Positions 22,287 through 51,207 of a stretch of 64,000 nt of DNA are shown piece after piece. The notes beneath the pieces are model-generated. The model made no database searches. It saw only the letters and a program-made list of their open reading frames with translations, and was not told the origin of the DNA. How positions within the stretch are numbered: the first letter of the stretch is position 1; each line of letters starts with the position of its first letter. Origin of the DNA: Streptomyces chattanoogensis (GTDB taxonomy: Bacteria; Actinomycetota; Actinomycetes; Streptomycetales; Streptomycetaceae); contig NZ_LGKG01000185.1 in assembly GCF_001294335.1 (NCBI RefSeq), forward strand, positions 142,377 through 206,376. The letters are read 5' to 3'. A program made the position numbers and the translations under genes.

Positions 22287-22300
22287 TCTACGCGCGTTAA
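22287..22300. promoter_or_regulatory. Nucleoside-regulon operator, site 1 (before the BMP lipoprotein)
   Basis: TCTACGCGCGTTAA matches the palindrome TCTACGCGCGTAGA at 12 of 14 positions; the left half is perfect. It lies about 50 bp upstream of the lipoprotein gene start. Confidence 0.75.
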
Positions 22301-22350
22301 TCTCCCGACAGTCAGCGCCAAAGGTGGCGCTACGAGTCGAAGGGGCCCTC

Positions 22351-23388
22351 GTGCACCGGGTATCCAAGATCGTTGCCGCGGGCATTGCCACCGCGGCCCT
22401 CACGCTCTCGCTGAGCGCCTGCGGCGAGTCGTCCACCGAGTCCGGTGGCAAGGACAAGGGCGTCGGGCTCGCCTTCGACGTCGGCGGCCGGGACGACCAC
22501 TCGTTCAACGAGGCGGCGGCTCGTGGCGTGGACAAGGCCGAGAAGGACCTCGGCGTGAAGTCCAAGATGATGACCGCCAAGAACGGCGAGACCGAGGCGG
22601 ACCGCGAGCAGCGGCTGTCCTCGCTGGCCGAGGCGGGCTTCAACCCCGTCATCGGGGTCGGCTTCAACTACGGCAAGTCCGTCAACAAGGTCGCCAAGCA
22701 GTTCCCGAAGACCACCTTCGGCGTCGTCGACTCCCCCTCCCAGGCCAAGAACGTCTACGGCATGGTCTTCGCCGAGCACGAGGGCTCCTACCTCGCCGGT
22801 GTCGCCGCCGCGCTGAAGAGCAAGACCCACAAGGTCGGCTTCATCGGCGGTGTGAACAACGCGCTGATCCAGAAGTTCCAGGCCGGCTTCGAGCAGGGCG
22901 TCAAGGACACCGACTCCAAGGCGAAGGTCACCTCCGAGTACCTCTACGCCAACGACGACAAGGGCTTCAACGACCCGGCGGCCGCGAAGGGCAAGGCCAA
23001 GGGCATGCTCGACGCCGGTATCGACGTGATCTACACCGCGGCCGGACAGTCCGGCAACGGCTCGATCGAGACCGTCGCCGGCAAGAAGGGCACCTGGGCG
23101 ATCGGCGTCGACTCCGACCAGTACCTGCAGCCGGGTCTGGCCAAGTACAAGAGCTCGATCCTCACGTCGGTGATGAAGAACGTCGACGTGGCGGTGTACG
23201 ACCTGGTCAAGAGCGTGCATGACAAGAAGCCGCTGACCGGCAACAAGGCCTACACCCTCAAGGACGACGGCGTGCGGCTGTCCACCTCGGGCGGCTTCAT
23301 CGACGACATCCAGGCCAAGATCGACGCGGCGAAGAAGAAGATCGCGTCGGGCCAGGTGAAGGTCAACGACACCCCCGGCAAGCAGTAA
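22351..23388 (+). CDS. BMP-family nucleoside-binding lipoprotein of an ABC importer
   Basis: Extracellular substrate-binding lipoprotein, 345 residues from GTG 22351 (GAAGGGG upstream). A signal peptide ends at lipobox LSAC with Cys24. BMP/PnrA domain motifs include AFDVGGRDDHSFNEAAARG, VGFIGGVNNALIQKFQAGF and DVIYTAAGQSGNGSIETV, where stacking and ribose-binding residues reside. The ATPase and two permeases follow, and cytidine deaminase and thymidine phosphorylase come after them, so purine and/or pyrimidine nucleosides are the cargo. A GC stem-loop downstream would lower expression of the transporter relative to the binding protein. Confidence 0.93.
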   Translation: MHRVSKIVAAGIATAALTLSLSACGESSTESGGKDKGVGLAFDVGGRDDHSFNEAAARGVDKAEKDLGVKSKMMTAKNGETEADREQRLSSLAEAGFNPVIGVGFNYGKSVNKVAKQFPKTTFGVVDSPSQAKNVYGMVFAEHEGSYLAGVAAALKSKTHKVGFIGGVNNALIQKFQAGFEQGVKDTDSKAKVTSEYLYANDDKGFNDPAAAKGKAKGMLDAGIDVIYTAAGQSGNGSIETVAGKKGTWAIGVDSDQYLQPGLAKYKSSILTSVMKNVDVAVYDLVKSVHDKKPLTGNKAYTLKDDGVRLSTSGGFIDDIQAKIDAAKKKIASGQVKVNDTPGKQ

Positions 23389-23402
23389 GGTCTTTCCGGC
23401 CC

Positions 23403-23433
23403 GGCCCGGCGGCAGCACGCCGCCGCGCCGGGC
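23403..23433 (+). terminator. Imperfect GC-rich stem-loop after the binding-protein gene
   Basis: Arms GGCCCGGCGGC and GCCGCCGCGCCGGGCC pair with a small bulge. It lies 15 bp past the lipoprotein stop and may be a partial terminator or an mRNA-stabilising hairpin. Confidence 0.6.
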
Positions 23434-23484
23434 CGTTCGCCGGTCCAGACCGGCAGCTTTTCCGGCTTTTTTTCGGCGTCAACA

Positions 23485-23496
23485 CTACGCGCGTAG
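23485..23496. promoter_or_regulatory. Nucleoside-regulon operator, site 2 (before the ABC ATPase)
   Basis: CTACGCGCGTAG is a perfect 12-bp palindrome about 85 bp upstream of the ATPase start. It implies a separate controlled promoter for the transporter operon. Confidence 0.85.
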
Positions 23497-50106: not shown

Positions 50107-50242
50107 GTGATGCTCCTGACGGTCAGGTCAATGCGGAGGGGCGGTGCGGACGGACGAGGCAAAGGGGGACGCCCGGCTCGTCACGCCTACCCGCTGCGCG
50201 CGTACTTCGAGCCGCAGTACCGGCCAATGGTGCTGCGGGGGC

Positions 50243-50302
50243 GGCGGGGCGGCCTGGGGGTACCCCCGACGTCGTTCGGGAGTACCCCCAGGCCGCCCCG
50301 CC
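50243..50302. repeat. Long perfect stem-loop between PNP and phosphomutase genes
   Basis: A 21-bp perfect inverted repeat (50243-50263 with 50282-50302) has an 18-base loop centred on ACGT. It contains GGGGGTAC/GTACCCCC. It lies 45 bp past the PNP stop and likely terminates or processes the PNP mRNA. I recall the same loop-and-arm pattern as a dispersed element in other Streptomyces. Confidence 0.85.
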
Positions 50303-50347
50303 GGAGGCGCTGCGCCCGGTCCGGATCGTGCCGGGCGCGTGCCGGGC

Positions 50348-51169
50348 TCAGAGCTTTCCGAGCACCTGGGCGAGCAGGCTGCCCATCTGGGTCGCGGAGT
50401 CGCGGCCGGCCTGCAGCACCTCTTCGTGGTTGAGCGGTTCACCCGTCATGCCCGCGGCGAGGTTCGTCACCAGGGACAGGCCGAGCACCTCGGCGCCCGC
50501 CTCGCGGGCGGCGATGGCCTCCAGGACCGTGGACATACCGACCAGGTCGGCGCCCAGGGTGCGGATCATCTTGATCTCGGCCGGGGTCTCGTAGTGCGGG
50601 CCGGGGAACTGGGCGTACACACCCTCCTCGAGGCTCGGGTCGACCTCCTTGCACAGCGCGCGCAGCCGCGGCGAGTACAGGTCCGTCAGGTCGACGAAGT
50701 TCGCGCCGACGATCGGGGAGGTGGCGGTGAGGTTGAGGTGGTCGCTGATCAGGACCGGCTGGCCGGGGCGCATGCCCTCACGCAGACCGCCGCACCCGTT
50801 GGTGAGCACCACGGTCTTGCAGCCGGCCGCGACGGCGGTACGGACACCGTGCGCGACCGCGGCGACCCCGCGGCCCTCGTAGTAGTGCGTACGGCCCAGG
50901 AAGACCAGGGCGCGCTTCTCGCCGACGCGGTACGAGCGGACCTTGCCGCCGTGTCCGGCCACGGCGGGCGGCGGGAAGCCGGGCAGCTCGGTGACCGGGA
51001 ATTCGTGCTCGGGCGCGCCCAGGGCCTCGGCGGCCGGGGCCCAGCCCGAGCCCATGACCAGGGCGACGTCGTGGGTCTCGGCGCCGGTCAGCTCGCGCAG
51101 TCGGGCGGCGGCGGCGTCGGCGGCGCCCTGCGGGTCGCGGGCGATGTCGGGAGTAACAGATGCGTTCAC
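50348..51169 (-). CDS. Purine nucleoside phosphorylase
   Basis: Phosphorolysis of (deoxy)inosine and (deoxy)guanosine. The 273 residues fit the trimeric class: LVMGSGWAPAAEALG (phosphate loop, ~38), LGRTHYYEGRGVAAVAHGV (~92), VVLTNGCGGLREGMRPGQPV (~118), GPHYETPAEIKMIRTLGADL (~195) and GMSTVLEAIAAREAG with Asn in VTNLAAGM. GTG 51169 has no ribosome site; TACCCT lies seven bases upstream, suggesting a leaderless message. A perfect operator palindrome lies further upstream. The product sugar phosphate feeds the phosphomutase encoded next. Confidence 0.94.
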   Translation of the reverse strand: MNASVTPDIARDPQGAADAAAARLRELTGAETHDVALVMGSGWAPAAEALGAPEHEFPVTELPGFPPPAVAGHGGKVRSYRVGEKRALVFLGRTHYYEGRGVAAVAHGVRTAVAAGCKTVVLTNGCGGLREGMRPGQPVLISDHLNLTATSPIVGANFVDLTDLYSPRLRALCKEVDPSLEEGVYAQFPGPHYETPAEIKMIRTLGADLVGMSTVLEAIAAREAGAEVLGLSLVTNLAAGMTGEPLNHEEVLQAGRDSATQMGSLLAQVLGKL

Positions 51170-51193
51170 GCGGACGAGGGTAGCCGCAAATCT

Positions 51194-51207
51194 CCTACGC
51201 GCGTAGA
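51194..51207. promoter_or_regulatory. Nucleoside-regulon operator, site 6 (before the purine nucleoside phosphorylase)
   Basis: On the minus strand TCTACGCGCGTAGG, with the perfect CTACGCGCGTAG core. It lies 25-38 bp upstream of the PNP start. Confidence 0.88.

Follow-up and report, generated by a model that had tools for sequence, protein, structure and literature searches.

A palindromic site that probably marks one Streptomyces-wide regulon for nucleic-acid scavenging and salvage

In a 64,000-nucleotide stretch of the Streptomyces chattanoogensis genome (contig NZ_LGKG01000185.1, positions 142,377 to 206,376; hereafter the window), a 14-bp near-palindrome, the TCTACG site, recurs before genes for the uptake and breakdown of nucleosides. 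From comparison of these sites across genomes we consider it probable (about 85%) that they serve as operators and that these define a single Streptomyces-wide regulon for nucleic-acid scavenging and salvage. The initial annotation had proposed one regulon of six nucleoside units; the single regulon is strongly supported, though as a genus-wide set instead of six units. Thus, allowing one mismatch, 174 sites were found in 25 genomes of the family as opposed to four for a reversed control pattern, the figures being the sum of two scans (104 versus 3 in 13 genomes, and 70 versus 1 in 12 more). Moreover, each of the 33 sampled loci has a gene for nucleic-acid or nucleotide metabolism whose start is under 400 bp away from the site. 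The regulon extends far beyond the window.

Sites in the window and in relatives

Mismatches were counted against the perfect palindrome TCTACGCGCGTAGA, with its central C|G step. At up to two mismatches the window holds six matches, at 22287, 23484 and 28000 (two mismatches each) and at 32723, 47622 and 51194 (one each); no exact 14/14 copy occurs across the 64 kb. All six positions given in the initial annotation could therefore be located, although two of its coordinates were off, by 1 bp (23485 for 23484) and 5 bp (27995 for 28000). Its statement that the palindrome precedes no other gene in the window holds at this threshold, since the two extra matches, at 20624 and at 53890 (101 bp ahead of a DeoR-family gene), have three mismatches each. 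At up to three mismatches the eight matches compare with 2.81 expected by shuffling, and 3 of 100 shuffles reach eight. This count is weak evidence by itself, and it is mainly conservation and gene context that exclude chance. The sites and the genes they precede are as follows.

22287..22300, + strand: predicted operator TCTACGCGCGTTAA, two mismatches, before the BMP-family lipoprotein gene
22210..23388, + strand, likely start GTG 22351: BMP/PnrA-like substrate-binding lipoprotein gene (Pfam PF02608)
23484..23497, + strand: predicted operator ACTACGCGCGTAGC, two mismatches, with neither outer T, before the ABC ATPase gene
23623..27586, + strand: ABC ATPase and two permeases, start of the first open reading frame (ORF) uncertain (NCBIfam sugar/B6-type ABC models, below equivalog cut-offs)
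27583..27978, + strand: cdd, cytidine deaminase, without a site of its own (Pfam and NCBIfam profiles)
27985..28028, + strand: terminator-like hairpin of 44 nt after cdd, folding at -47 kcal/mol, its tip being the deoA site
28000..28013, + strand: doubtful operator TCTATGCGTGTAGA, two mismatches, before deoA
28098..29384, + strand: deoA, pyrimidine-nucleoside/thymidine phosphorylase (Pfam and NCBIfam profiles)
32723..32736, + strand: predicted operator TCTACGCGCGTAGG, one mismatch, before add; -10-like TAGAGT at 32740-32745
32752..33867, + strand: add, adenosine deaminase (Pfam and NCBIfam profiles)
47622..47635, - strand: predicted operator GCTACGCGCGTAGA (gene-strand reading), one mismatch, before deoC; -10-like TATGCT at 47616-47621 abuts it
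46608..47609, - strand, start GTG 47609 or ATG 47603: deoC (Pfam and NCBIfam profiles)
51194..51207, - strand: predicted operator TCTACGCGCGTAGG (gene strand), one mismatch, before the purine-nucleoside phosphorylase gene; -10-like TACCCT at 51177-51182
50348..51169, - strand: purine-nucleoside phosphorylase (PUNP; hereafter PNP; TIGR01698, above cut-off)

The profiles (Bmp, sugar-type ABC, cdd, thymidine phosphorylase, adenosine deaminase, deoC and PNP) confirm these gene identities, the ABC genes staying below the equivalog cut-offs.

Conservation was assessed over 109 loci, namely 80 database records (78 Streptomyces, one Kitasatospora and one actinobacterium) and 29 stretches of relatives. 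A site was counted when it had at most two mismatches and lay within 160 bp of the start, at loci having enough upstream DNA. By this count the site stands before PNP at 90 of 90 loci, before deoC at 63 of 63 and before add at 13 of 13, in the last case with the identical 14 letters throughout. The ABC site was found at five of nine loci (eight when 200 bp was allowed), and cdd had none at any of the nine loci compared. In 85 distinct sequences of the PNP site, 13 of the 14 positions are invariant and the flanking bases vary. For PNP, deoC and add, then, the site is conserved above its flanks across species, as expected of a single operator serving one regulon. Separate stretches fetched from seven relatives gave the same picture, add, deoC and PNP each carrying the site in all seven. 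The BMP homologues are preceded by TCTACGCGCGTTAA (two mismatches) or TCTACGCGCGTTAC (three) in five of these seven, and also in the genomes G120 and G172; the ABC gene has its site in the same five, the stretch from G011 ending short of both genes. The sites at the BMP, ABC ATPase, add, deoC and PNP genes are conserved in Streptomyces.

The sixth site, at deoA, is doubtful as an operator because it forms the tip of a terminator-like hairpin and because only two of 11 relatives carry a site there (at most two mismatches); six of the 11 have no match better than six mismatches. By eye, those two relatives have the site next to the hairpin-like sequence but not in it, on its 3' side in one case and on its 5' side in the other, and in several relatives a hairpin-like stretch with different letters, free of the motif, occupies this position. 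Five sites and a doubtful one at deoA are thus more likely to describe the window than the six transcription units that had been claimed.

Further genes trail or separate the marked ones:

45166-47337 (frame) and 44313-45293, - strand, as deoC: two ORFs with an aldehyde dehydrogenase domain (PF00171, Pfam), after deoC
48433..50106, - strand: phosphoglucomutase/phosphomannomutase-family gene 3' of PNP (Pfam PGM_PMM), candidate phosphopentomutase
36184-38349: histidine kinase, between add and deoC (Pfam)
38673-39587: sigma-70-region protein, between add and deoC (Pfam; these two lie in the stretch where the initial annotation placed afsQ)

Since the dehydrogenase ORFs trail deoC and the mutase trails PNP, the sites span the route from nucleosides to (deoxy)ribose phosphates, in which the mutase would act as a phosphopentomutase and the dehydrogenases would use acetaldehyde. 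Separately, an ORF at 41922-43811 contains a WXG100 domain (Pfam), suggesting a type VII secretion substrate.

Members beyond the window

The S. chattanoogensis genome contains 23 places with at most two mismatches, as against 15 for the reversed control. Reading of the gene context assigned six of them to the window, nine to nucleic-acid, nucleotide or nucleobase genes, one to a MarR-family gene and seven to seemingly unrelated genes. The members beyond the window comprise purSQL, NCS2 and NCS1 nucleobase permeases, an Acid_phosphat_B phosphatase, two nucleotidase-like proteins, a dihydropyrimidinase (above cut-off), a GmrSD_C nuclease, the MarR gene and a CN_hydrolase, which is beta-ureidopropionase-like by context while its best NCBIfam model, N-carbamoylputrescine amidase, stays below cut-off. 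The outcome named beforehand as speaking against the regulon was an abundance of sites of like quality ahead of unrelated genes. The scan went largely the opposite way: at two mismatches 7 of 23 look unrelated, but the sites lie mostly at nucleic-acid genes and the result is clean at one mismatch. In other families, scans at one mismatch returned no site in eight genomes (control, 3) and none in five (control, 2), four genomes being shared.

The 33 sampled loci were selected by the search procedure from the one-mismatch scans, with no more than two per genome and 24 genomes in all, and the reference proteins for their context check come partly from loci of the same scans. They comprise nine GmrSD_C nuclease genes, five loci with purQ of purSQL, four each of a carbamoyl amidohydrolase, add and PNP, three ExeM-like nucleases, two NCS2 permeases, and one each of an exo/endonuclease-phosphatase family protein and the ABC ATPase. 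The same site therefore precedes functionally linked genes at several loci, as a regulon with a single operator should show. That the nucleases and phosphatases look secreted is a by-eye reading of their N-termini.

Some observations weigh against so simple a picture. Besides the seven seemingly unrelated places in the genome of S. chattanoogensis, 3 of 13 sites in G011 (L049, L051 and L052) look unrelated, two more sites of that genome being outside the count, and the relative G010 has no site ahead of the ABC or BMP genes in the stretch examined. One may also ask whether the sites are operators at all, or coding and structural coincidences arising from conserved codons and terminator hairpins. 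The sites of the nine GmrSD_C genes indeed lie within the first codons, so that protein constraint could contribute there, and at deoA the site sits on the tip of a hairpin. However, the other 24 of the 33 loci are independent of these, the sites at add, deoC and PNP precede the start codon with invariant cores and variable flanks, and folding supports a hairpin at deoA alone. A structural reading of all sites was accordingly rejected, and we regard coincidence as extremely improbable.

Three observations on individual members may be added. First, in the GmrSD_C-type nucleases (L039, L044, L050, L054, L075, L076, L116 and L122, and L020 of the S. chattanoogensis genome; the Pfam family name was found for L020, L116 and L122) the site encodes the residues YARR while the neighbouring residues vary, a case of an operator inside coding sequence. 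Second, a secreted-looking protein of no confident family (L053 in G011 and L056 in G003, the latter profile-scanned) has one or two sites upstream and is a candidate new nucleic-acid scavenging protein. Third, in the purS upstream regions L040 (G009) and L055 (G003) a second half-site-like ATCTACGTGA stands next to the site before purSQL.

Candidate regulators

A single repressor is likely to serve all sites. The initial annotation pointed to the DeoR-family protein at 53991 as the nearest candidate, and this candidate stands as the best one, though unproven, by its co-occurrence with the sites, the conservation of its DNA-binding domain and its linkage to PNP.

53991..54971, + strand: DeoR-family regulator, best candidate repressor (PF08220 and PF00455)

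The protein has both the HTH_DeoR domain and the DeoRC sensor domain (Pfam). It falls outside the Escherichia coli DeoR equivalog (NF007961, 69.3 bits against a cut-off of 244), its best NCBIfam model being AgaR (181.6 against 260), and a sequence comparison with solved structures gave one match alone, the sensor domain of a deoxyribose operon repressor (7l6l, E 1.2e-6). An ortholog is present in 19 of 19 site-bearing genomes of the family and in 119 of 121 genomes of the genus. In other families 11 genomes were compared: the best relative reaches just 38-44% identity in ten, and the eleventh yields none at that threshold. The site scan covered nine of these 11 and found no site. The helix-turn-helix domain shows a mean identity of 0.984 over 91 loci, most rows differing by one residue only (the start residue as written in the query), versus 0.855 for the rest of the protein and 0.77 for the LysR protein of the window (13 loci). 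PNP adjoins the gene in 87 of 91 loci, with starts 1771-3548 bp apart.

Several facts tell against the DeoR-family protein. Its co-occurrence with the sites is confounded by phylogeny. G001, a 79% complete assembly, has no ortholog yet carries eight sites (the other genome without one, G646, lay outside the site scan). As the initial annotation had said, its own promoter is without the site: none is present in 11 of 11 relatives, and over 91 loci no match is better than four mismatches. The three-mismatch match at 53890 is kept in none of the 11 relatives and was rejected. An operator in its own promoter is not obligatory for a DeoR-type repressor. S. coelicolor SCO4920 is presumably the ortholog of the protein. 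In a published co-expression study SCO4920, a 'putative deoR-family regulator', belongs to a module in which sigma factors, and not nucleoside genes, are over-represented (PMC3224704). On balance we put the DeoR-family protein forward tentatively, at appreciably less than even odds, as the most likely single repressor. Directly before its start (53728-53990 in the window, and in 11 relatives) lies a conserved block, about CTGAAAGCAGACGGTCG...GTTACTGTCAGTTTCGTG, which is unlike the TCTACG site and might perhaps be the gene's own promoter and operator.

The chances are about even that another regulator, for example of LacI, TetR or GntR type and not autoregulated, is encoded elsewhere and that the DeoR-family protein is a mere neighbour. 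Both the site-free DeoR promoter and the published module speak for this. So does the architecture of the site. LacI-family operators are even palindromes with a central C|G step, and the site resembles them; the predicted AraQ motif TGTGAGCGCTCACA may be compared (PMC4746261). Against it, among those regulators of the genome that were scanned, a conserved site turned up at just one other regulator gene, MarR, and this candidate fails as shown below. Pfam profiles were run on 30 distinct window ORFs, most ORFs before 22 kb being outside the scan, and gave as regulator types LysR, a histidine kinase, a sigma factor, DeoR, two GntR and one TetR, among them:

6327-7034: GntR/FCD regulator (Pfam)
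11493-12173: TetR regulator (Pfam)
60151-60960: GntR/UTRA regulator (Pfam)

The MarR-family protein encoded beside Lon (L007/L022) was considered as an autoregulated master repressor, as its gene is found in 177 of 181 genomes of the genus and its promoter has a site with at most two mismatches in 13 of 20 genomes (GCTACGCACGTAGA in 12), or 14 at three. But orthologs are absent, with best identities of 32-39% when every candidate was scored, from G074, G079, G147 and G194 of the genus and from G201 of a sister genus, and these five genomes still carry four to six sites each; in G074, G147, G194 and G201 identification of the genes showed that sites stand at add, deoC and PNP, and for G079 this is read from the site letters only. 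The protein is therefore excluded as the sole regulator and is very improbable as the master repressor; its gene is more likely a target.

A GntR/HutC-type protein encoded next to add paralogues was considered as well, the gene pair being preceded by TCTACGCGCGTAAA in G006 and TCTACGTGCGTAGA in G042. This GntR gene is, however, present in only 8 of 41 genomes of the genus. By eye, another palindrome, CTTGTCAGACAAG or a close form, lies beside the pair at seven of nine loci and is more likely its own operator, whereas the TCTACG palindrome is found with at most three mismatches at three of the nine (within about 200 bp), five of the nine having it on the other strand or lacking it. With so few genomes and apparently a different palindrome of its own, the GntR protein was rejected, and of all the candidates it has the slightest chance of binding the site. 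In the accessory copies of GntR with a second add (L079-L086, from G006, G033, G042, G023, G004, G038, G000 and G031) CTTGTCAGACAAG or a similar palindrome is present in most, and in G006 and G042 the pair has also a one-mismatch TCTACG site, implying two layers of control.

Mode of control and relation to known systems

A common form of the -10 box is TANNNT. Boxes of this form follow the sites at add (3 bp downstream), deoC (directly adjacent) and PNP (11 bp downstream), and because they lie 0-11 bp after the site, repression is suggested: the geometry points to a repressor that would block RNA polymerase. Most likely a dimeric protein would bind each site, and a product of nucleoside breakdown would free the promoter, the inducer perhaps being a pentose phosphate such as deoxyribose-5-phosphate. 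Judged by the sites before their genes, the functions under such control would extend from secreted-looking nucleases and phosphatases, nucleoside and nucleobase uptake and adenosine deaminase to PNP, the sugar-phosphate mutase and deoC, as well as pyrimidine-ring degradation and purSQL. A sugar-phosphate signal fits purSQL and the nucleobase permeases poorly, which counts against this part of the model. An independent hint of co-regulation may come from expression, as three putative nucleases and the adenosine deaminase SCO4901 jointly reach a much higher abundance in S. coelicolor than in S. lividans (PMC7244524).

A further feature is that the ideal site was not encountered. The exact 14/14 palindrome occurs in none of 394 genomes of the class, 40 of the genus included, and in none of the 2.36 Mb of fetched non-viral loci. 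The genome search alone proves no depletion, because the reversed control is also rare (exact matches in six of the 394, none in the genus). One-off sites, by contrast, are abundant. Every one of 177 distinct sites whose 12-bp core is perfect carries a single outer T on its own strand, and none has both. The partner outer base is C in 103, G in 66, A in 8 and T in none, T making up 16% of flanking bases. In 48 further distinct one-defect sites both outer bases fit and the defect lies inside the core; the ABC site of the window, with neither outer T, is an exception outside the 177. In viral contigs the exact palindrome is about as frequent as TCTACGCGCGTAGG, one of the one-off forms (29 versus 27 stretches), so that its absence elsewhere is not explained by chemistry or by the search method. 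The weight of the counts is lowered because the site families are related by descent, the 177 sites not being independent. The simplest reading of the pattern is a capped operator strength, and it might be, at odds just short of even, that the ideal operator is forbidden and that a largely conserved, promoter-specific defect caps repression, giving each gene its own induction threshold. The alternative to capped strength is a truly asymmetric recognition sequence.

How does this regulon compare with known systems? In E. coli, DeoR and CytR repress nucleoside catabolism (deo, cdd and uptake genes) through palindromic operators, which differ from the Streptomyces site. The candidate discussed here is likewise of the DeoR family by both its domains (PF08220 and PF00455), but it scores far below the DeoR equivalog cut-off, and the Streptomyces sites reach further, to nucleases, nucleobase permeases, pyrimidine-ring degradation and purSQL. 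PurR, a LacI-family protein of gamma-proteobacteria, governs purine and pyrimidine genes globally, those for biosynthesis among them (PMC4052901), whereas the Streptomyces genes are mainly catabolic, for uptake or apparently secreted, and no LacI protein was seen near them. NupR of Bacillus thuringiensis, a regulator of nucleoside uptake (PMC9430930), is of another family (GntR/HutC), and the add-linked GntR protein here seems to have a different palindrome. XdhR of S. coelicolor, from the same genus, is a purine-salvage regulator described for xdh and actinorhodin genes (PMC6627660), yet no xdh is among the identified site-bearing genes. No description of the motif or the regulon was found in the literature within reach, which excluded most subscription journals and the RegPrecise tables; the matches to the motif appear to concern DNA structure and GapR binding, not this regulon, and a literature search on ideal operators was likewise unproductive.

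If the proposal is true, it describes a Streptomyces circuit for recycling nucleic acids, for example the DNA released by mycelium dying during development. Through the shared switch, nucleases and nucleotidases would gain probable functions, and the site would serve as a ready marker for new nucleic-acid scavenging genes. The one-defect pattern, in turn, makes testable whether natural operators are selected against the tightest binding.

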